DNA from: an uncultured Paraglaciecola sp.
GTDB taxonomy: Bacteria > Pseudomonadota > Gammaproteobacteria > Enterobacterales > Alteromonadaceae
Reading direction: 5' to 3'
Assembly: GCF_937123705.1 (NCBI RefSeq)
Contig: NZ_CAKZKO010000200.1
Span: 1-64,000 of the forward strand
Length of the DNA: 64,000 nt
Shown here: positions 38,537 through 47,221 of the stretch, piece after piece
Layout: every line of letters begins with the position of its first letter
How positions within the stretch are numbered: the first letter of the stretch is position 1
Notes under the pieces: generated by a model
Database searches by the model: none
Seen by the model: only the letters and a program-made list of their open reading frames with translations
What the model was told of the DNA's origin: nothing
Program-made: the position numbers and the translations under genes

Positions 38537-38944
38537 ATGAAAAGAAAAAAGCACGGCAGTTCTGACGAAGATGCTGCAATTGATATGACTCCCATGTTGG
38601 ACATAGTGTTCATCATGCTTATCTTCTTTATTGTGACCACCTCTTTTGTAAAAGAGAAAGGCTTAGAAGTTAATCGTCCTAAAGATTCAAAAACGCCACC
38701 ACCCCCGACTAATGTTAAGTCGCTATCTATTCGCGTAAATGAAGACGGTACTATTGTGGTTAATGGCCGTCAGGTAGATATTCGCCGCGTAGAAGCCAAC
38801 ATTCAGAGCTTCTTGGCTGAAAATAATCAAGACTCAGCCGCTGTTCAGGCCCATCCAAAAGCCAAACACGGTGATGTCACTGAAGTAATCAACGAAGTGA
38901 AAAGAGCCGGTATTGTAAACGTCTCTGTCTTGGTTGGTAAATAA
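38537..38944 (+). CDS. exbD: ExbD/TolR family energy-coupling protein
   Basis: This 135-residue inner-membrane protein has one helix containing the proton-path Asp (DMTPMLDIVFIMLIFFIVTT, about 17-36) and a periplasmic domain (SIRVNEDGTIVVNGRQVDIRRVE). ExbD works with ExbB and TonB to power outer-membrane uptake, but no exbB or tonB is adjacent. It is thus an orphan or works with partners elsewhere. A strong terminator follows 30 nt after the stop. Confidence 0.92.
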   Translation: MKRKKHGSSDEDAAIDMTPMLDIVFIMLIFFIVTTSFVKEKGLEVNRPKDSKTPPPPTNVKSLSIRVNEDGTIVVNGRQVDIRRVEANIQSFLAENNQDSAAVQAHPKAKHGDVTEVINEVKRAGIVNVSVLVGK

Positions 38945-39008: not shown

Positions 39009-39723
39009 ATGTTGAAGTTAACATCAAACCCAGCATACCTAAAACAAAACCAAACACCGCCCCCATCGGTGGCGCCCAATGTTTATCTAACCTCACTTGA
39101 GGTGCCAAATCTTGAAAAATCGCATATAAGATACCGCCAGAAGCAAACAGCATAACAGCAGCGATAATTTGCGGGGATTCAGATAACCATAAATAACCAG
39201 ATACAGCTGCAAGTGGGCCAAGAGCTGCCATTAAAATAAAGACTAGAATAATTTTTGAAGCTCGATAAACAGATGAAGCATTTAACTCACGATATGCATT
39301 AAATCCCTCGGGTAAATTTTGCAGCGCAATTAACCCCGCAAGCAAATATGCATGGCTATTACCTGTAGCAAATGCCGCACCTAAGGCAATCGACTCTGGA
39401 ATGAAATCAGACAACATAGCCGCCAGTTGACTAGCAGGAGTATTGCTTTTAGTTAAGTAAATATCCAAAGCCATAAAACTAAACCCACCAACAATCACCC
39501 AAATACAAGCAATCATAGGTTGCAGATGATTAATACCTTCAGGCACTAAAACCAAAGCAACGGCCGACAACAACGCCCCTCCGCCAAAAGCTATTACTGC
39601 ATGCCTAAATTCTTGCTCGAGCCAATCACTCTGCACTTTTTCGAAACAAGCAATCACGGCACCAAGGGGCATAGCCAAGCCCGCCAAAAAGGTGGTGATC
39701 ACGACAATAAAAAGCAGCGACAT
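39007..39723 (-). CDS. ZIP family divalent metal transporter
   Basis: This 238-residue membrane protein has about eight hydrophobic segments. The ZIP metal-binding helices are visible as SDFIPESIALGAAFATGN and ALQNLPEGFNAYRELN (E/N/P motifs that bind Zn/Fe). ZIP proteins move Zn2+, Fe2+ or Mn2+ into the cytoplasm; ZupT-like specificity is possible but unproven. The left copy of the RAYT-flanking REP starts only 22 bp upstream of its ATG, so its promoter may lie within or beyond the inserted element. Confidence 0.9.
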   Translation of the reverse strand: MSLLFIVVITTFLAGLAMPLGAVIACFEKVQSDWLEQEFRHAVIAFGGGALLSAVALVLVPEGINHLQPMIACIWVIVGGFSFMALDIYLTKSNTPASQLAAMLSDFIPESIALGAAFATGNSHAYLLAGLIALQNLPEGFNAYRELNASSVYRASKIILVFILMAALGPLAAVSGYLWLSESPQIIAAVMLFASGGILYAIFQDLAPQVRLDKHWAPPMGAVFGFVLGMLGLMLTST

Positions 39724-39744
39724 TATTATTCCTTAACTCAATTA

Positions 39745-39766
39745 TCAATGGGGTCAGAGCATTTGA
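39745..39766 (+). repeat. REP copy, left end of the RAYT unit
   Basis: This is the 22-bp repeat beginning TCAATGGGGTCAGAG and ending CATTTGA. It is identical to the forward arms at 42899, 43889 and 45732. Confidence 0.93.
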
Positions 39767-39820
39767 TTTGTTACAAATCACAGCCTACATTATATATGTT
39801 ACTTCTCTGAGGGCTATCTT

Positions 39821-40543
39821 ATGGCTCGCCTCCCAAGACTAAATCTAGCCAACATCCCACAGCACATCATTTTGCGTGGTAATAATCGACAGATATGCTT
39901 TTTTGACGAACAAGATTACAAAGTTTATCTTGCTAAGCTAAAAGAGTTTAGCGAAAAACTATTAGTTGCCATTCACGCTTATGTTTTGATGACCAATCAC
40001 GTGCATTTATTGGCCACCCCAAGCGATAAAACAGGAGTAAGTCGCTTGATACAAAGATTAGGCGCTTACTATGTTAGGTATATTAATAAAAAGTACGACC
40101 GTTGCGGCACATTATGGCAAGGCCGTTATAAATCGACTTTAGTGGATAACGAAGGCTACTTTTTAACCGTTAGTCGATATATTGAAATGAATCCAGTGCG
40201 CGCCAATATGGTTGAACACCCTGCTGCATACTCATGGTCAAGCTTTCATCGAAATGCGCTAGGCATACCCATTGAATTGATAACACCCTACGAAATATAC
40301 CAATCATTAGGAAATACCGACCAAGCAAGACAAAAAAGTTACCTAGCATTATTCGAACAGCAAATTTCCGAAAGCACCTTAAAAGAAATAAGAGAGTCCA
40401 TTAACCATGGCTGGGTCTTAGGAAATGATCGCTTTAAAGCACAAATAGAAATAACAACAGGAAGGCAAACTACATCTAAGTTGCGAGGTGGAGACCGAAA
40501 ATCACGCCAGTATTTGCATAAGCAAAAAAATCAAATGCTCTGA
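39821..40543 (+). CDS. REP-associated tyrosine transposase (RAYT, TnpA_REP)
   Basis: This 240-residue HUH-family single-strand transposase begins MARLPRLNLANIPQHIILRGNN. It has the HUH pair HVH (60-62) in YVLMTNHVHLL and a candidate catalytic Tyr120 in GYFLTVSRYIEMNPVRANMV. The C-terminal basic region (GGDRKSRQYLHKQKNQML) reads into the right REP copy, and the TGA stop is itself part of that repeat. It would cut and join REP hairpins in its family. It is convergent with the DUF6090-like genes. Confidence 0.93.
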   Translation: MARLPRLNLANIPQHIILRGNNRQICFFDEQDYKVYLAKLKEFSEKLLVAIHAYVLMTNHVHLLATPSDKTGVSRLIQRLGAYYVRYINKKYDRCGTLWQGRYKSTLVDNEGYFLTVSRYIEMNPVRANMVEHPAAYSWSSFHRNALGIPIELITPYEIYQSLGNTDQARQKSYLALFEQQISESTLKEIRESINHGWVLGNDRFKAQIEITTGRQTTSKLRGGDRKSRQYLHKQKNQML

Positions 40544-40552
40544 CCCCATTGA
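40531..40552 (-). repeat. REP copy, right end of the RAYT unit (contains the RAYT stop codon)
   Basis: This is an exact reverse complement of the 39745-39766 copy. It encodes the last residues (Gln-Met-Leu) and the TGA of the RAYT, and ends 4 nt before the stop of the first DUF6090-like gene. Confidence 0.93.
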
Positions 40553-40556
40553 TTTT

Positions 40557-41318
40557 TTATTTTTTTCCTAACTCGGCATTAATTTTATCAATCGCTTGCA
40601 GAGCTGCTTCATGTTGAATGTCTAACTCTCCGGCAGTTGGTGTGATTTCGCTCAGCCAAAATGTGAGTGTGGTGCGAATATCTGGATGTTGCCGAATGGA
40701 CTCCACAACTTGGGCAGCTATATCGTTCGAAACCGCTGCTGGGCAGTCATCGTAGCGAATAGTTTCAACACTAGCTTCTAAGCGCCAGCAGTTTGACCAA
40801 TAGGCTTCGTGAACAGCTACAGGTAAAATGCTCCGAACAACCTCACGATATCTTGGTAGCTCATCTAGAACCAAGGCATTATAATTTTGAGAATGATATT
40901 TCTCAACTGCTGTCACTATGTCTCGAGAGCGGGGGAGTCCTTGTCGTCTCATTTCAGCGAAAACTGAGCGTTTAATCACTACGGGAAACCAGTGAGATGC
41001 GTGAAAAAAATCGGCTAAAACAGACCAGCACTGGTCATTGCAACTAACACCTTTATCCATAAACAAAAGTGAACGCTTTGCCGCAGCGTGAACATTTTCA
41101 AAATGGTTTCGTAAAATATTAGCGTTTGTGGCGTCACTTTCGATTTCACGTTTAAGCTCAATCAGCAATTCACGCTCCTGAGAATCTAAAGTACGCGCGT
41201 CATTCCAATTCGCCACTTGAATACCAATAAACACACCCACCACTACAATAAAAAAATCAATAAATACCGCAAACCAGTTTTGGTCAGTGACGTGTTTGGT
41301 TATTCTTCGTAAAAGCAT
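40557..41318 (-). CDS. DUF6090-like single-pass membrane protein, paralogue 1
   Basis: The track start at 41417 is too early. ATG at 41316-41318 overlaps the previous gene's stop (TGATG) and aligns with the paralogues, giving 253 residues. A short basic N-terminus with HVTDQNWFAVFIDF leads into one membrane helix ending GVFIGIQVANWN (to about residue 35). A long helical, acidic/basic domain follows, with four Cys-containing positions (GVSCNDQCW, NCW, DDC) not shared by the other copies. It is last in a four-gene run. Function unknown. Confidence 0.82.
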   Translation of the reverse strand: MLLRRITKHVTDQNWFAVFIDFFIVVVGVFIGIQVANWNDARTLDSQERELLIELKREIESDATNANILRNHFENVHAAAKRSLLFMDKGVSCNDQCWSVLADFFHASHWFPVVIKRSVFAEMRRQGLPRSRDIVTAVEKYHSQNYNALVLDELPRYREVVRSILPVAVHEAYWSNCWRLEASVETIRYDDCPAAVSNDIAAQVVESIRQHPDIRTTLTFWLSEITPTAGELDIQHEAALQAIDKINAELGKK

Positions 41319-42085
41319 CAATGGTTCTCCGATACACTTGAGATTTGCGCACCAACCAACGCTTCGGCTAGTTGATCGAGTTTTGCTAAATGGCTGTTTA
41401 AGAAATTCACATACCACTGGTTTTTTTGCAGACCTACAACAACATCACTTAAGAACTCTTGCTCGGGTGCCGCTTCGAGGAAGTGACAGTCTGCAGCCAT
41501 TTGGTATCCCTCTGTCTCAAAAACCTTATCTAAACTATTGCGTAAGTCTGTTGCACGCTTCCAGCTAATCGCATTTGGATATTTCTGGCTTAGCATTGGA
41601 AAATTCATACGCATGCTTTCAATCACAGTCCGCAAACGATCCTCGCTTTGCTCCACGACAATAAGTGCCTGGATAAGCGCCGTTTCTGAAAGTAAATCAA
41701 TTCTACCGCCCGCAAAGGCTTCTGTAATGCTTGGTACTGCGATTGGCGGGAGGGTAATCAGATGCATACTGGCAAATTGTCTGCATTGCCACTCACTTAA
41801 CGGCTCAATTTCACCGTCACCGAAATACATATTTTCTACACGCGCAATGGTGCGAAGGCGATTTTCTCGCTCCGCAACAAATGCCGTCAATTGCTCTCGA
41901 GCACCATTAACATCAACTGCCAAACGCGCCAGAAACGCGGTTTCCTTGACGCGATCTGCCCGTGTTTCGTTCCAGTTATTGATCTGTAAACCGATTAAAA
42001 GACCTATCACCACAATGGCAATTTCAATCAATACAGTAAACCAATCTTGGCGACGTATGGCTTTTGAAATGCTACGCAAAATCAT
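41318..42085 (-). CDS. DUF6090-like single-pass membrane protein, paralogue 2
   Basis: This 255-residue protein has the family N-terminus in a more diverged form (MILRSISKAIRRQDWFTVLIEIAIVVIGLLIGLQINNWNETR), one membrane helix, then a coiled-coil-like region (FLARLAVDVNGAREQLTAFVAERENRLR) and a variable helical tail. It overlaps paralogue 3 by 4 nt (ATGA) and paralogue 1 by 1 nt. Cys residues around QWQCRQF and AADCHF are not positionally conserved. Function unknown. Confidence 0.82.
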   Translation of the reverse strand: MILRSISKAIRRQDWFTVLIEIAIVVIGLLIGLQINNWNETRADRVKETAFLARLAVDVNGAREQLTAFVAERENRLRTIARVENMYFGDGEIEPLSEWQCRQFASMHLITLPPIAVPSITEAFAGGRIDLLSETALIQALIVVEQSEDRLRTVIESMRMNFPMLSQKYPNAISWKRATDLRNSLDKVFETEGYQMAADCHFLEAAPEQEFLSDVVVGLQKNQWYVNFLNSHLAKLDQLAEALVGAQISSVSENH

Positions 42086-42879
42086 GGTTGAGCATCCTGC
42101 TGGCTAGGTTCAGTCACTGCATTCAAATTAAAAGGCACATAGCAATCCCCATAGACAGTTTGAGCAAACTTATTATGTGCTGCTACGATTTCATTGCCTT
42201 GCATTATCAGTTCAGGAGATAAATCAATTCCTATATTTTCTATACTGGTGGCTATTTGACCTGCTATCAGCTCCATTAAACCGCTTTTGAGATCCATCTC
42301 TCCAAGTGAATCAAGGTAACGCAATCGATCTCTTTTACCAATTCGCGTTGAAAAAGCCAAAGTCTTGATGCGGCCTTGTAATGTGTATATTTCTCTTTGT
42401 AACTTTTCTGCATGTTCAGTTTGTTTGAATAAGCTATCAATGCGATTTCGTCGATCAATATCCATTGAGCTAAAGGTGCCTCGTCCCAATTCAGCATGCC
42501 AGTTATTTGATCCCCATCCACGACTGGGTGATCTTAATAAATTAGGCAGCGCAGTTATGATGCCAACTACGTCTACCTCTTCTCTGGGCATACCAATCCA
42601 TTCTTCTTCGGGCTCTAATAATTTTTGTGCAATAGATTGATAGGCTTCAATTCTACATTTTGAAACAGCCACTCTTTCTTTGGCATTAAAATAATTTCTG
42701 TGTAAATCATCTTGTAACACTTTCTCGGCTTGTTCGGTGTTGGTTCTTTGGTCTCTTTCACTGAGCCACTGTTGTCCCATCATCGCCACCGCAACGCCAA
42801 TTACAACAATGATAAAATCGAGCGTGACAGCAAACCAGTTTTGGTCTTTTAGGTGTTTTGTAATTCTTCTTAGAAGCAT
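42082..42879 (-). CDS. DUF6090-like single-pass membrane protein, paralogue 3
   Basis: This 265-residue protein opens with HLKDQNWFAVTLDFIIVVIGV, then departs from the others: the helix ends VAMMGQQWLSERDQR instead of the IGxQVANWN motif. The helical body includes HRNYFNAKERVAVSKCRIEAYQSIAQKL and a conserved-looking GWGSNNWHAELGRGTFSSMD segment. It is separated from paralogue 4 by a BIME at 42899-42952, so the run may be two transcripts or one with an internal hairpin. Confidence 0.82.
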   Translation of the reverse strand: MLLRRITKHLKDQNWFAVTLDFIIVVIGVAVAMMGQQWLSERDQRTNTEQAEKVLQDDLHRNYFNAKERVAVSKCRIEAYQSIAQKLLEPEEEWIGMPREEVDVVGIITALPNLLRSPSRGWGSNNWHAELGRGTFSSMDIDRRNRIDSLFKQTEHAEKLQREIYTLQGRIKTLAFSTRIGKRDRLRYLDSLGEMDLKSGLMELIAGQIATSIENIGIDLSPELIMQGNEIVAAHNKFAQTVYGDCYVPFNLNAVTEPSQQDAQP

Positions 42880-42898
42880 TATTCAGATTCCTCAAAAA

Positions 42899-42952
42899 TC
42901 AATGGGGTCAGAGCATTTGAAAATGAAAAATCAAATGCTCTGACCCCATTGA
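42899..42952. repeat. Paired REP (BIME) between DUF6090-like genes
   Basis: Forward REP 42899-42920 and its exact inverse 42931-42952 are separated by 10 nt (AAATGAAAAA). With flanking AAA/TTT the stem can reach 25 bp. The arms equal the ends of the RAYT unit. It sits 19 nt upstream of the paralogue 3 start. Confidence 0.95.
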
Positions 42953-42985
42953 TTTCTTTTGTTTAAAGGAAATAAATAGGCCATG

Positions 42986-43732
42986 TTAATAATCATTTTG
43001 AGATTCGATTTGCGCTTGTATTGCTTTGGCTAATTTTAACTGCCTTCGGGCAAAGGTAAGTTGGTTTTCTTGCGCTGCCATAGCAGTGCTTAGCGCACCT
43101 GACAGGTTGGGCTGGGTGAGTAAACGCGTTAAATCAAATGTGTCGGGTTCAACATATCTTGCTTGTGAATAAGATGCAGCGGTGGTTTTGGCTTTGTAAA
43201 TCAAGATGCCTGTTGTGGGCTGCATGGCATTGAGCAACTGATCTCTGAGCGTTTTCCAACCGTAAATAGAGACTTTAGAAAATTCGTCAAATTCATATAA
43301 AGCTTGGCGCAGTTTTGAGTTTCTGATTAACACCAATTCACCATTGGCAACCATTTCCTCAAACACAGCTGGGGAACTGGCGGGAACCCTGCCTCTTGTT
43401 ATGTCGACAAATGCAATGATTAAATCATCTTCATCGGCTTGATAGGTGTCTGGGTTTAGCTGATAGGCATTGCGCGCATCTAACAACAATTGAATGGCGT
43501 TTATACTCTTTAAGTATAATTGGGACGCACCTTCCAATCGCTCAATGGTTACCGTTAATTCTTCTTTTAACCGTTCGATATAAAACTGTTCTTTGTCTAA
43601 ATTTTGTCTCGCTTCATTCCAGTTCGCTACTTGTAAACCAATAAATACCCCAACGACCACAATGAAAAAGTCTAGGAATACCGCAAACCAGTTTTGGTCT
43701 TTTACGTGTTTGGTCACACTGCGTAGGATCAT
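42986..43732 (-). CDS. DUF6090-like single-pass membrane protein, paralogue 4
   Basis: This 248-residue protein has the clearest family N-terminus: HVKDQNWFAVFLDFFIVV, then GVFIGLQVANWNEARQN. A helical body follows with the AVFEEMVANGELVLIRNSKLRQALYEF block, which resembles the usual DUF6090 core. It is the promoter-proximal gene of the run. Membrane topology is probably N-in with the domain in the periplasm. It is a short distance (33 nt) from the BIME on its 3' side. Function unknown. Confidence 0.85.
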   Translation of the reverse strand: MILRSVTKHVKDQNWFAVFLDFFIVVVGVFIGLQVANWNEARQNLDKEQFYIERLKEELTVTIERLEGASQLYLKSINAIQLLLDARNAYQLNPDTYQADEDDLIIAFVDITRGRVPASSPAVFEEMVANGELVLIRNSKLRQALYEFDEFSKVSIYGWKTLRDQLLNAMQPTTGILIYKAKTTAASYSQARYVEPDTFDLTRLLTQPNLSGALSTAMAAQENQLTFARRQLKLAKAIQAQIESQNDY

Positions 43733-43888
43733 TAAGATGCTCTTTTTTGATTATAAAAATTCCGTTTTACCAATTTACAACGCAATGCAAACCATATAAA
43801 CGGAGCTTTTGTAAGGTAACACAAGAAGATCTTTGCTTGGTTAAAAACCATACATTAAACAGTGAGAGGAGTAAAACAAGTCCCAAAA

Positions 43889-43945
43889 TCAATGGGGTCA
43901 GAGCATTTGATATTTTCAATTTTTCAAATGCTCTGACCCCATTGA
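43889..43945. repeat. Paired REP (BIME) upstream of the DUF6090-like run
   Basis: Forward REP 43889-43910 and inverse 43924-43945 are separated by 13 nt (TATTTTCAATTTT). The AAA/TTT flanks extend the stem to 25 bp. It lies in the 43733-44056 divergent intergenic region, which has no gene and must also hold the promoters of paralogue 4 and the esterase. Confidence 0.95.
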
Positions 43946-44056
43946 TTTACTCTAATTGCGACTAGGCGGTTTTTTAGTGGTATTCAGCTGATTAGTTATG
44001 AGCAACTCGTCTGAGTGTAGTAAAACTATGTATATGCAGTGATTTAGGAAAACATT

Positions 44057-44911
44057 ATGCGTTTATTCACATTTGCTATTAGTTTTAGTTTGATGGTTGT
44101 TATTCAGGCTCAAGCATTCGCCAAAAATGACTCCATACTGGGTATGCAGTCTATTATTGACACTCAGTATCTCAAGCTTGAATCCAAAGTACTAAAGCGT
44201 GATTTTCACTTATTGGTTAAGTTACCTGCTAGTTATCAAGACTGTACTAATTGCCAATATCCAGTGGTGTACCTATTAGATGGTGGTGCGGTATATCCGA
44301 TGTTGGCGGGTTATTATAATTACTTACGCCATGAAGACGTGGTGCCTGAGGTGATTCTGGTGGGGATTTCTTATGGTAGCAATGATTTTGAAACAGGTAA
44401 TTTTCGCAGTACTGACTACACTGCGCCAAGCAGTGAACGCAGTTACTGGGGTGGTGCGAGTCAATTCCAACAGGCCTTAATCAAGGATATCTTACCCACC
44501 ATCGAAGAAAAATACCCTGTTGATCCTCAAAAACGAATTATTTTTGGGCAGTCGCTAGCCGGACAATTTGTGTTATATAACGCGTTAACTCAGCCAGAGT
44601 TATTTTATGGGCATATTTCTAGCAATCCTGCTCTGCATCGAAATTTAGAGTTTTTTCTTAAACCTAACAATAGCATTCACAAGACTAAATTGTTTGTTGC
44701 TAAAGGCAGCTTAGATGACGCGAGATTTAGACTCCCGTCTGATAAATGGGTGAAACATTGGTCCAATGCAAACACCGCCCCTTTCACACTTGAAACAAAA
44801 ATGCTCGATGGCTATGGGCATTTTTCGGTGATTACCGAATCTTTTAGACATGGATTAGATTGGTTGTTAGTTAAAAATGCCAAGGACCTTAAAGATAGCG
44901 ATTCACCTTAA
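44057..44911 (+). CDS. Secreted alpha/beta-hydrolase esterase (Fes/IroE-like putative esterase)
   Basis: This 284-residue precursor has a signal peptide (about 1-22, ending AQAFA). The esterase core shows YPVVYLLDGGAVYPM, the nucleophile elbow GQSLAGQF (Ser about 166) and a late His in GYGHFSVI. The family includes enterobactin/salmochelin esterases and related carboxylesterases of diverse substrate. No siderophore gene is nearby. It is convergent with a small membrane protein gene (4-nt gap). Confidence 0.88.
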   Translation: MRLFTFAISFSLMVVIQAQAFAKNDSILGMQSIIDTQYLKLESKVLKRDFHLLVKLPASYQDCTNCQYPVVYLLDGGAVYPMLAGYYNYLRHEDVVPEVILVGISYGSNDFETGNFRSTDYTAPSSERSYWGGASQFQQALIKDILPTIEEKYPVDPQKRIIFGQSLAGQFVLYNALTQPELFYGHISSNPALHRNLEFFLKPNNSIHKTKLFVAKGSLDDARFRLPSDKWVKHWSNANTAPFTLETKMLDGYGHFSVITESFRHGLDWLLVKNAKDLKDSDSP

Positions 44912-44915
44912 AACT

Positions 44916-45269
44916 TTATTTGTTTTTATTGCCATTTTTTGTCAACGAACATAGTGGCAATAAAAAAGCCAACAAGCCTGGGATCAACACAGTTGCCAAC
45001 ATCCCATATAAATCTAAATCGTTCATATGTGATGCTTCGTCAAAGATTAACAATACCCCAAACAAGGTCAGCATAATTACAACGACTAAAAGCCCACGCT
45101 TCTTATCTCGATTCTTAGCAGAATAGGCAACTAAACCAATGATAATCAGTAATACAGCAATAATTAAACTACCAAGCCCTACCCATAAAATAACAAAATC
45201 AGAAGCAACGGCTTGCATAGGCACTAGAGATAATAAAATAATGGTTATTACGTAGTTTAATCTAGGCAA
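44916..45269 (-). CDS. Small multi-pass membrane protein of unknown function
   Basis: This 117-residue protein starts with TTG. That start is supported by a strong Shine-Dalgarno (AAGGAGGAAATAATTTG) at normal spacing. A signal-like helix (about 5-23, ending VASD) is followed by three membrane helices (about 27-48, 60-77, 86-105) and a Lys/Asn tail. No family is recognised. It lies downstream of a SRPBCC gene with which it may be co-transcribed (45-nt gap). Confidence 0.72.
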   Translation of the reverse strand: MPRLNYVITIILLSLVPMQAVASDFVILWVGLGSLIIAVLLIIIGLVAYSAKNRDKKRGLLVVVIMLTLFGVLLIFDEASHMNDLDLYGMLATVLIPGLLAFLLPLCSLTKNGNKNK

Positions 45270-45314
45270 ATTATTTCCTCCTTCAATTAAGTGCTATTGA
45301 TAAATCAACAAACG

Positions 45315-45701
45315 CTAAGATTCCAAGTATTTTTTCATTGGTTGCCAATATCTATCGTGCCAACCTTGAGTCAAGTGCTCCTCATGTTCTGGCGGAAAAC
45401 CGCTGTGGTCAAAACAGATTTTTGTTTCGTCTTGACTAATTTCTATAACCTCGAATTTTACAATTGAATAAATACCTTCATCCCAATTAGCCACTCGCCA
45501 AGCTTGCACTAATCGTAAATTTAATACCGCTTCAATTGTTATTCCTGAAATCATCCCACCGAAAATTGAAAACTTGTCGCCAGACTGTGGTTTTATCTCA
45601 GCTGGCATTCCCGATAATTCAGAAAATTTTGAGGCGTTAGTAAGGCTTTCGTAAACACTTTCAATACTACTTTTAATGGTTATATCTTGATGAATTGACA
45701 T
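45315..45701 (-). CDS. SRPBCC (AHSA1-like) family protein
   Basis: This 128-residue soluble protein starts with MSIHQDITIKSSIESVYESLTNASKF. It ends WHDRYWQPMKKYL, the start and C-terminal helix of the START/Bet v1-like AHSA1 fold. These domains form a hydrophobic pocket; functions range from ligand binding to polyketide cyclisation. Specific role unknown. The BIME at 45732 lies about 30 nt upstream of its ATG. Confidence 0.88.
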   Translation of the reverse strand: MSIHQDITIKSSIESVYESLTNASKFSELSGMPAEIKPQSGDKFSIFGGMISGITIEAVLNLRLVQAWRVANWDEGIYSIVKFEVIEISQDETKICFDHSGFPPEHEEHLTQGWHDRYWQPMKKYLES

Positions 45702-45731
45702 GGTGAAATCCGTTATTGTTGGTTTAGCACA

Positions 45732-45786
45732 TCAATGGGGTCAGAGCATTTGAAAAGTTAAATATCAAATGCTCTGACCCCATTGA
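45732..45786. repeat. Paired REP (BIME), distal copy
   Basis: Forward REP 45732-45753 and inverse 45765-45786 are separated by 11 nt (AAAGTTAAATA). The arms are identical to the others but have fewer matching flanking bases. It marks the right edge of the REP-rich region. Confidence 0.95.
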
Positions 45787-45917
45787 TATTACATAAATAA
45801 AATATTCGAGTATTTCATCAAACAAATGGGAAATTTGAAAACAACTTGGTACCAACGGCGCCTATTGCTATGCGAAATTGAGTTGCTGGTTTAACAAAGG
45901 AGTGAAACTTATGCCTA

Positions 45918-46655
45918 TTATTGAGGAGTAAAAAAACCGTTTTTAATGGTTAATCTTAATTTTTCTAATATTGCAGGCTCAATATTTTTATTGGCGGCAA
46001 GATAGCCTGAGAGTTCTAATTCGGGGATGGCTAGGGTATAATTTGCTGATGTTATTGGCAGGTCATATTGCATTAGCATACTTTCGATAAGCTCTGGCGA
46101 TTCAACAATAAAATCAACTTTTTTATTCAGTAACAGTCGCCAAGAACAACCTATGTCTGAGCAGACAATCAGCTGATTTCCTTCTTCTAAACCGTAATTT
46201 AGTGCCCATTTATGAGCTATATCGTTGCGTTGCACTGCTAGAACAAAATTTGAAACTTGTTTGAGCTGAGTGATCTTCATTGCAGTTTGGTTGGTGTTTA
46301 ATGCAACCAAGCCAAATTTATACTCCACTACTGGTAATAACCAGTGAAACAATTCATCACGTTCTGCAGTGTTAGCAATAGAATATATTAAGGTATTTGG
46401 TTCAGTTATGGCTTTGTGATAAGCCCTCGCCCAAGGGTACAAATTGAACGAAGCTGACACTTTAGAAGCTGATAAAATACTTTTTACCACAGTGGTCGCA
46501 GAGCCAGACACTTCATTGTTTATTAATGTTTGGTAGGGAGGTGACAATTCAGTCACAACTTGTAGTTGCGGGCTATCTGCAAAACATTTTATGGAAAGTA
46601 CCGACACCAATAACAAACAATTACGAATAAAACCCGCTCCTAAAAAATTTTGCAT
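45918..46655 (-). CDS. Periplasmic solute-binding protein of the SBP_bac_3 type
   Basis: This protein of about 245 residues has a signal peptide (MQNFLGAGFIRNCLLLVSVLSIKCFA). The mature part has the extracellular solute-binding family 3 pattern: LQVVTELSPPYQTLINNEVSG and VVKSILSASKVSASFNLYPWARAYHKA. The track start (46688) is TTG; ATG at 46655 gives a better signal peptide. No permease or ATPase is adjacent, so it may be an orphan or a sensor-type receptor. Ligand unknown. Confidence 0.8.
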   Translation of the reverse strand: MQNFLGAGFIRNCLLLVSVLSIKCFADSPQLQVVTELSPPYQTLINNEVSGSATTVVKSILSASKVSASFNLYPWARAYHKAITEPNTLIYSIANTAERDELFHWLLPVVEYKFGLVALNTNQTAMKITQLKQVSNFVLAVQRNDIAHKWALNYGLEEGNQLIVCSDIGCSWRLLLNKKVDFIVESPELIESMLMQYDLPITSANYTLAIPELELSGYLAANKNIEPAILEKLRLTIKNGFFTPQ

Positions 46656-46735
46656 TGTTGAAATAAATTCGAAAGATATTTTGTTCAATCATAATCAAAA
46701 ACGAAAGACTCGACAATTAATTTCGGGGTAAAAAC

Positions 46736-47221
46736 TTACTCTAAATCTAATGGCTCTGGTGATAAAATAACACCTGTAGTATCGGCATATAAATGGTCTT
46801 CAGGTAAAAATGTTACGCCACCAAAATTAACCGCTACATCTATTTCACCTGTTTCTTGATCATCGGCACTCACAGGAATTGAAGCAATAGCATGAATACC
46901 AATATTGATGTCTTCTAAATCATCGACTTCACGCACGCTGCCATAACATACAATGCCTTCCCAGCCGTTATCAAAAGCTAACTGCGCGGCACTAGCATCA
47001 ATTAATGCTCTGCGCATTGAACCGCCTCCATCAATTAACAATATTTTACCTACGCCAGGTTGATCTAATGCTTTTAACACCAGTCCTTTGTCTTCGAAAC
47101 ACTTAACAGTAGTAATCTCTCCACCGTAGGAAGTGCGGCCTCCAAAACTTACAAACATGGGTTCAACCACGTCAACACTGTCGGCAAAAACATCACAAAG
47201 AGTAGAAGTATTGTAATCCAT
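46736..47221 (-). CDS. rraA: Regulator of ribonuclease E activity A
   Basis: RraA binds the C-terminal half of RNase E and helicases to modulate mRNA decay. The 161-residue length is that of E. coli RraA. The sequence [40 protein letters not shown] and [24 protein letters not shown] is typical. It is a single gene, start ATG. Confidence 0.95.

Follow-up and report, generated by a model that had tools for sequence, protein, structure and literature searches.

Structure and classification of the unit

The window analysed here is a stretch of 64,000 nucleotides from an uncultured Paraglaciecola sp. (assembly GCF_937123705.1, contig NZ_CAKZKO010000200.1, positions 1 to 64,000 of the forward strand), and the subject of this report is an 810-bp unit at 39744-40553 in which a transposase gene of the TIRYT kind is framed by two perfect terminal inverted repeats (TIRs). 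The unit is composed as follows:

39744-39769, plus strand: left TIR, ATCAATGGGGTCAGAGCATTTGATTT, a perfect inverted match to the right TIR
39821-40543, plus strand: TIRYT gene, encoding a Y1 HUH transposase of 240 amino acids (aa) (Pfam, NCBIfam, alignment, AlphaFold model)
40528-40553, minus strand: right TIR, a perfect inverted copy matching the left TIR and holding the stop codon of the transposase gene
40541-40543, plus strand: TGA stop codon, supplied by the TGACCCC of the TIR

The identity between the two sides covers exactly 26 bp and stops there. A first-pass annotation of this DNA had described an inverted 22-bp repeat around the gene and a reading frame ending inside its right-hand copy; both observations hold, the repeat being in fact 26 bp long (39744-39769 / 40528-40553) and the frame closing with ATG CTC TGA. 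Its labelling of the repeats as repetitive extragenic palindromic (REP) sequences was wrong: no GTAG foot is present at the repeats of the unit, and a Pseudomonas-type REP pattern is absent from the window. The repeat contains GGGGTCAG, which fits the TIRYT motif GGGGWSAS. The 22-mer, with no more than 3 mismatches allowed, matched eight times in the window (0.00 expected from shuffled windows), and these matches form four inverted pairs, namely the TIRs of the unit and three dimers that the first-pass annotation does not mention; the TIRtron reading would account for this gene with its ends and for the palindromes nearby as a single small element family. No target-site duplication was evident in the flanks, which were read by eye.

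The 240-aa protein matched Pfam family PF01797 (E 2e-17); its score with NF047646 (REP_Tyr_transpos) was slightly under the cut-off, and that with the NCBIfam model transpos_IS200 was below it. The protein carries an HUH motif (N59-H60-V61-H62), the motif Y120-IEM-NP and a C-terminal extension with GGDRKS; in an alignment with 37 homologs N59, H60 and H62 were invariant and Y120 nearly so. The AlphaFold model had a mean predicted local distance difference test (pLDDT) score of 88, and a fold search with it yielded 4er8, a REP-bound REP-associated tyrosine transposase (RAYT), as the best match, followed by the TnpA proteins of IS608 and ISDra2. A sequence search of solved structures gave no match.

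TIRYTs have been described as RAYT-like genes framed by TIRs with GGGGWSAS instead of REPs (Di Nocera et al. 2013, PMC3733652); as in the present unit, the TIR may overlap the 3' end of the gene ('3'ov', marked in the figures of that paper), and TIR families occur as singles, dimers or groups. Self-complementary tracts in some TIRs are already stated there; mobility of the unit, half-TIR arrays and covarying arms, which are reported below, do not appear in the accessible part of its text. TnpAY1 subclass 2.1, which equals Bertels RAYT group 1 (Quentin et al. 2018, PMC6006769), has a median length of 238 aa, the motifs NHVH, W[EQ] and YIELNP or Y[IV]HLNP, and a C-terminal helix-turn-helix (HTH)-like domain; no REPs were found for it, and it was tentatively equated with the TIRYTs by the same authors (PMC6006769). 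The transposase studied here shows NHVH, LWQG and YIEMNP (one conservative change) at 240 aa, with C-terminal helices at 184-196 and 203-213 of the model and no GTAG-type REP, and it probably belongs to this subclass. It differs in that none of the reported HTH-like Pfam domains (Bac_DnaA_C, HTH_23, HTH_28) was matched at E up to 5, and in the covarying TIR arms and the whole units at unrelated loci found among its relatives. Because its motifs and length are those of a subclass tentatively equated with the TIRYTs, and because the repeat contains GGGGTCAG, the unit is a TIRtron rather than a REPtron and its repeats are TIRs, making it a further representative of a known kind.

Regarding other Y1 systems, the unit shares with IS200/IS605 elements (IS608, ISDra2) the catalytic fold and the organisation as a discrete cassette with structured ends, whereas the ends of those elements are subterminal hairpins and not long perfect TIRs; the unit also lacks tnpB and encodes a longer protein that has a C-terminal extension. 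Assignment to the IS200/IS605 subclass 1.1 TnpA (~150 aa, Y-x-x-x-Q) was rejected, the protein having 240 aa and Y-x-x-x-NP. The REPtrons and REPINs of E. coli, Pseudomonas and Stenotrophomonas (TnpAREP) likewise combine a Y1 enzyme with non-autonomous inverted dimers, and a clustering of copies near the gene is known from Marinomonas REPtrons (PMC8266576); the present system differs from them in the lack of GTAG, in far fewer copies and in a stronger unit character.

Whole units and gene-less TIR copies

Genomes were compared using one genome per species, and since the compared sequences are related, the P values given below are descriptive. Some 20 pairs of related loci combined a TIR-gene-TIR unit of 75-97% identity with unrelated flanks on either side, the similarity breaking off at the TIRs or close to them. 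For three congeneric units (G002:C42, G006:C57 and G020:C144) the identity was 84-89%, with a flank identity of about 0.5, which is the shuffled level; between G002 and G006 the break lies a few bases or less from the outer edge of the TIR on both sides. Some other pairs gave a BLAST match ending within a TIR, at places where that TIR had decayed. Units with unrelated flanks were also found among metagenome-assembled genomes (MAGs) of Halothiobacillus, Sulfurimicrobium and Sterolibacterium (78-84% identity), between Oleispira and another MAG (90%) and in Methylophaga (95%), and such unit-bounded homology extends across genera and classes (e.g., loci L041/L054/L044/L079, L069/L083, L029/L033 and L128/L129). 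The congener G015, which is complete in one contig, contains a truncated copy of 439 bp, starting at the edge of the left TIR, that is 100% identical to a full copy 4.45 Mb away. These comparative data suggest whole-unit mobility in subclass 2.1, contrary to published papers, which see no evidence that tnpAREP or class 2 genes move. In the same congener (L332:1440-2060) several TIR copies follow the truncated TIRYT copy, an arrangement resembling an insertion of TIR elements into the transposase gene.

Copies without a gene are present in the window and elsewhere in the genome. In the window they lie within a lineage-specific insertion:

38537-38944: exbD, left neighbour of the insertion
39009-46730, no strand: lineage-specific insertion with the unit and three dimers
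42898-42953, no strand: TIR-TIR miniature element (inverted dimer) with a long perfect stem (DNA fold z -10.6)
43888-43946, no strand: TIR-TIR miniature element (inverted dimer; DNA fold z -11.4)
45731-45787, no strand: TIR-TIR miniature element (inverted dimer; DNA fold z -13.1)
46736-47221: rraA, right neighbour of the insertion

In all 21 congeners exbD is directly followed by rraA, and the unit is absent from this position; here 7.7 kb lie between the two genes, and related units in the genus are located elsewhere. Because of this adjacency, the outcome that would have spoken against a mobile cassette according to the first-pass annotation, namely this gene at the same locus in all relatives and never elsewhere, was not observed. 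Since the whole 7.7-kb segment is absent, the congeners do not provide an empty site for the single gene. Between the TIR elements inside the insertion, four consecutive minus-strand genes at 40557-43732 encode proteins with similar N-termini (LLRRITKHVTDQNWFAV, LRSISKAIRRQDWFTV, LLRRITKHLKDQNWFAV and LRSVTKHVKDQNWFAV).

Copies in the rest of the genome were located by pattern and BLAST only. GGGGTCAGAGNA occurred 22 times and TCAATGGGGTCAGA, with one mismatch allowed, 25 times (reversed pattern, 0); apart from the gene unit, the copies are arranged as six inverted dimers with close spacing, two more widely spaced pairs and a few singles. Of the ten gene-less loci, three are no more than 6 kb away from the gene (P ~1e-6 for random placement), a clustering that could also stem from joint arrival. 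The copies in C118 (after a TAA near bioA) and in C23 (upstream of pyrG) are lacking in the congeners at the aligned loci. As side observations, several congeners (L174, L176, L177, L183) have older, diverged TIR pairs in the gap between ppiB and lpxH, where the genome studied here (L007) has a short dimer of its own type; a single TIR lies within a beta-galactosidase-like reading frame (L004:1490-1530, G000:C38), at a place where the paralog (G000:C33) has a related non-TIR sequence; and the 84% complete assembly of congener G003 (L240, L259) yielded a dozen TIR matches, some of them half-TIR palindromes, with no intact TIRYT detected.

Fine structure of the TIR

Outer and inner arms within one TIR paired better than arms taken across TIRs (mean longest helix 4.82 versus 4.14, 0 of 2000 shuffles), also when one TIR per outer hexamer was considered (3.91 versus 3.38, 0 of 5000 shuffles); the difference was weaker for TIRs without TCAA or TCGA in the outer arm (3.58 versus 3.27, 9 of 5000 shuffles). 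For two classes of spacing, in-register pairing involves 76% and 72% of the arm positions, compared with 14-51% when the arms are slid, and one middle arm pair changes on both sides (C-G 42, A-T 7 in one class; C-G 24, A-T 13 in the other). Inverted TIR dimers fold into long perfect stems; the single TIR of this unit has a weak self-fold (z -1.4). The covarying hairpin arms are a new result, and the putative TIR hairpin is derived from relatives whose sequences are not independent.

Extra partial copies comprising the outer arm and the core were found immediately outside 48 of 160 TIRs (control, 8 of 3200). Among 69 truncated copies the break lay exactly after GGGTCA in 22 and from one base before to two bases after this point in 40, the break-points being biased beyond the middle of the core by a search that required the core to be present. 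Half-TIRs in the genome studied here are broken after GGGTCA in C23 and after GGGTCAGAG in C118, with half-TIR arrays at L002:1480-1545 and L009:1495-1540; palindromes of two half-TIRs occur in congener G003. Half-TIR arrays broken just after GGGTCA are a new result as well, the simplest reading of which would be a preferred nick just 3' of GGGTCA; replication slippage at a hairpin is an alternative source.

Regarding the overlap of the gene with the right TIR, the TGA of the TIR serves as the stop codon in 30 of the 75 relatives that have a right TIR near the stop. Open reading frames (ORFs) that read into the TIR core end at this TGA in 30 of 32 cases (binomial P ~1e-12 against one in three, for sequences that are not independent), and most of the other relatives stop sooner, by up to about 30 nt. 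The tail that follows GGDRKS varied in length and sequence among the 37 homologs, and the last 20 residues of the AlphaFold model had a pLDDT of about 62; the TIR-encoded tail looks dispensable. Because ORFs entering the core nearly always end at the TGA of the TIR and the tail is variable and of low pLDDT, the overlap reads as economy and not as a shared constraint on enzyme function. As the tail varies and many relatives stop ahead of the core, the conserved item is the DNA end and not the protein tail, and the constraint that the first-pass annotation saw as shared by enzyme C-terminus and DNA substrate appears weak.

Interpretation

The anatomy of the unit, the occurrence of whole cassettes of this family at unrelated loci and the dispersal of gene-less TIR copies, which congeners lack at two aligned loci, are established. 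On these grounds 39744-40553 is considered, with a probability of about 0.78, to be a TIRtron in the sense of a compact mobile element consisting of the TIRYT gene and two perfect 26-bp TIRs, which seeds gene-less TIR-TIR copies. In the manner of Y1 enzymes, the TIRYT itself would mobilise both the unit and the TIR copies, nicking single-stranded DNA at their TIRs and forming a 5'-phosphotyrosine at Y120; the structure recognised may be the TIR hairpin or a pair of TIRs, and the preferred break would lie just 3' of GGGTCA. The few residues encoded by the right TIR would merely follow the DNA end, a stop codon at that place being economical. More tentatively, and with clearly less than even odds, TIRYT units in general could be autonomous Y1 HUH transposons with real TIRs, each TIR forming a hairpin with GGGTCA in its loop that is cut just 3' of GGGTCA; such cutting would produce the half-TIR arrays outside the element as well as genomic half-TIR palindromes.

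Several observations weigh against mobility of this unit. No second copy of it was found in its own genome, the congeners or the family genomes, and none of 299 family genomes held a near-identical copy (best, 71% over part), so that any activity of the unit itself is putative; the idea of the first-pass annotation that the whole gene moves as a cassette is thus upheld at the level of the family, where units at non-orthologous loci share homology ending at or near the TIRs, and not by an identical second copy of the 808-bp unit it had proposed to search for. Unit and dimers could have arrived jointly with the 7.7-kb insertion through ordinary horizontal transfer. The host assembly is a draft whose contamination is estimated at 8.6%. 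A precise empty site was not obtained for the G002 unit, of which only one flank is orthologous in relatives, and no target-site rule was found. The units of the Pseudoalteromonas luteoviolacea group share long flanks at one locus and look vertically inherited. Nothing points to a phage or plasmid vehicle: phages gave no match for the TIRYT gene, and plasmid matches were few and distant (16 records, of which half were Paraburkholderia replicons). In one of the plasmid records examined (L323, Pseudomonas aeruginosa, NZ_CP116719.1) TIRYT-like genes occur three times among genes with toxin-type domains, two of them sharing one protein accession in duplicated segments.

RAYTs are generally described as domesticated transposases with non-moving genes, and by extension the TIRYT gene could be static, or a passenger of horizontal transfer or recombination, with its enzyme mobilising only small TIR copies. 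This explanation draws on the published statements cited above, on the vertical retention in P. luteoviolacea, on the single copy of this TIRYT subtype in its own genome and on the position of the gene within a larger insertion. Passenger transfer does not predict a loss of homology at or close to both TIRs, as seen in many pairs and also between classes, nor the identical partial copy in G015 that begins at a TIR, and domestication is considered unlikely, while still carrying more weight than the two explanations that follow. An ordinary REPtron, the RAYT framed by cognate REPs of the first-pass annotation, would agree with the shared superfamily and fold, with the weak hairpin that each TIR can form and with the resemblance of TIR dimers to REPINs; it is highly improbable, since the defining GTAG foot is absent, the copies number about 25 and not hundreds, the conserved GGGTCA lies in the loop and not 5' of the stem, and the protein length, NHVH/YIEMNP and C-terminal extension are those of subclass 2.1, in which no REPs had been detected. 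An equally slight chance is given to the dispersed dimers being palindromes without a link to the transposase, either terminator-like or generated by repair. Several dimers do lie between genes, some directly after stop codons, yet over 22 nt they differ from the TIR of the unit by 0-2 mismatches, this genome has six short-spaced dimers against one across 21 congeners, and the two aligned positions are empty in congeners.

Subclass 2.1 is the second largest Y1 subclass, and the TIRYTs have been filed as lacking a REP-like DNA partner. If the reading as a mobile TIRtron is correct, with TIR-bounded units, covarying arms and a break after GGGTCA, subclass 2.1 would provide a tractable system of mobile elements whose substrate is clear, and a testable link between IS200/IS605 elements and the enzymes that make REPs.
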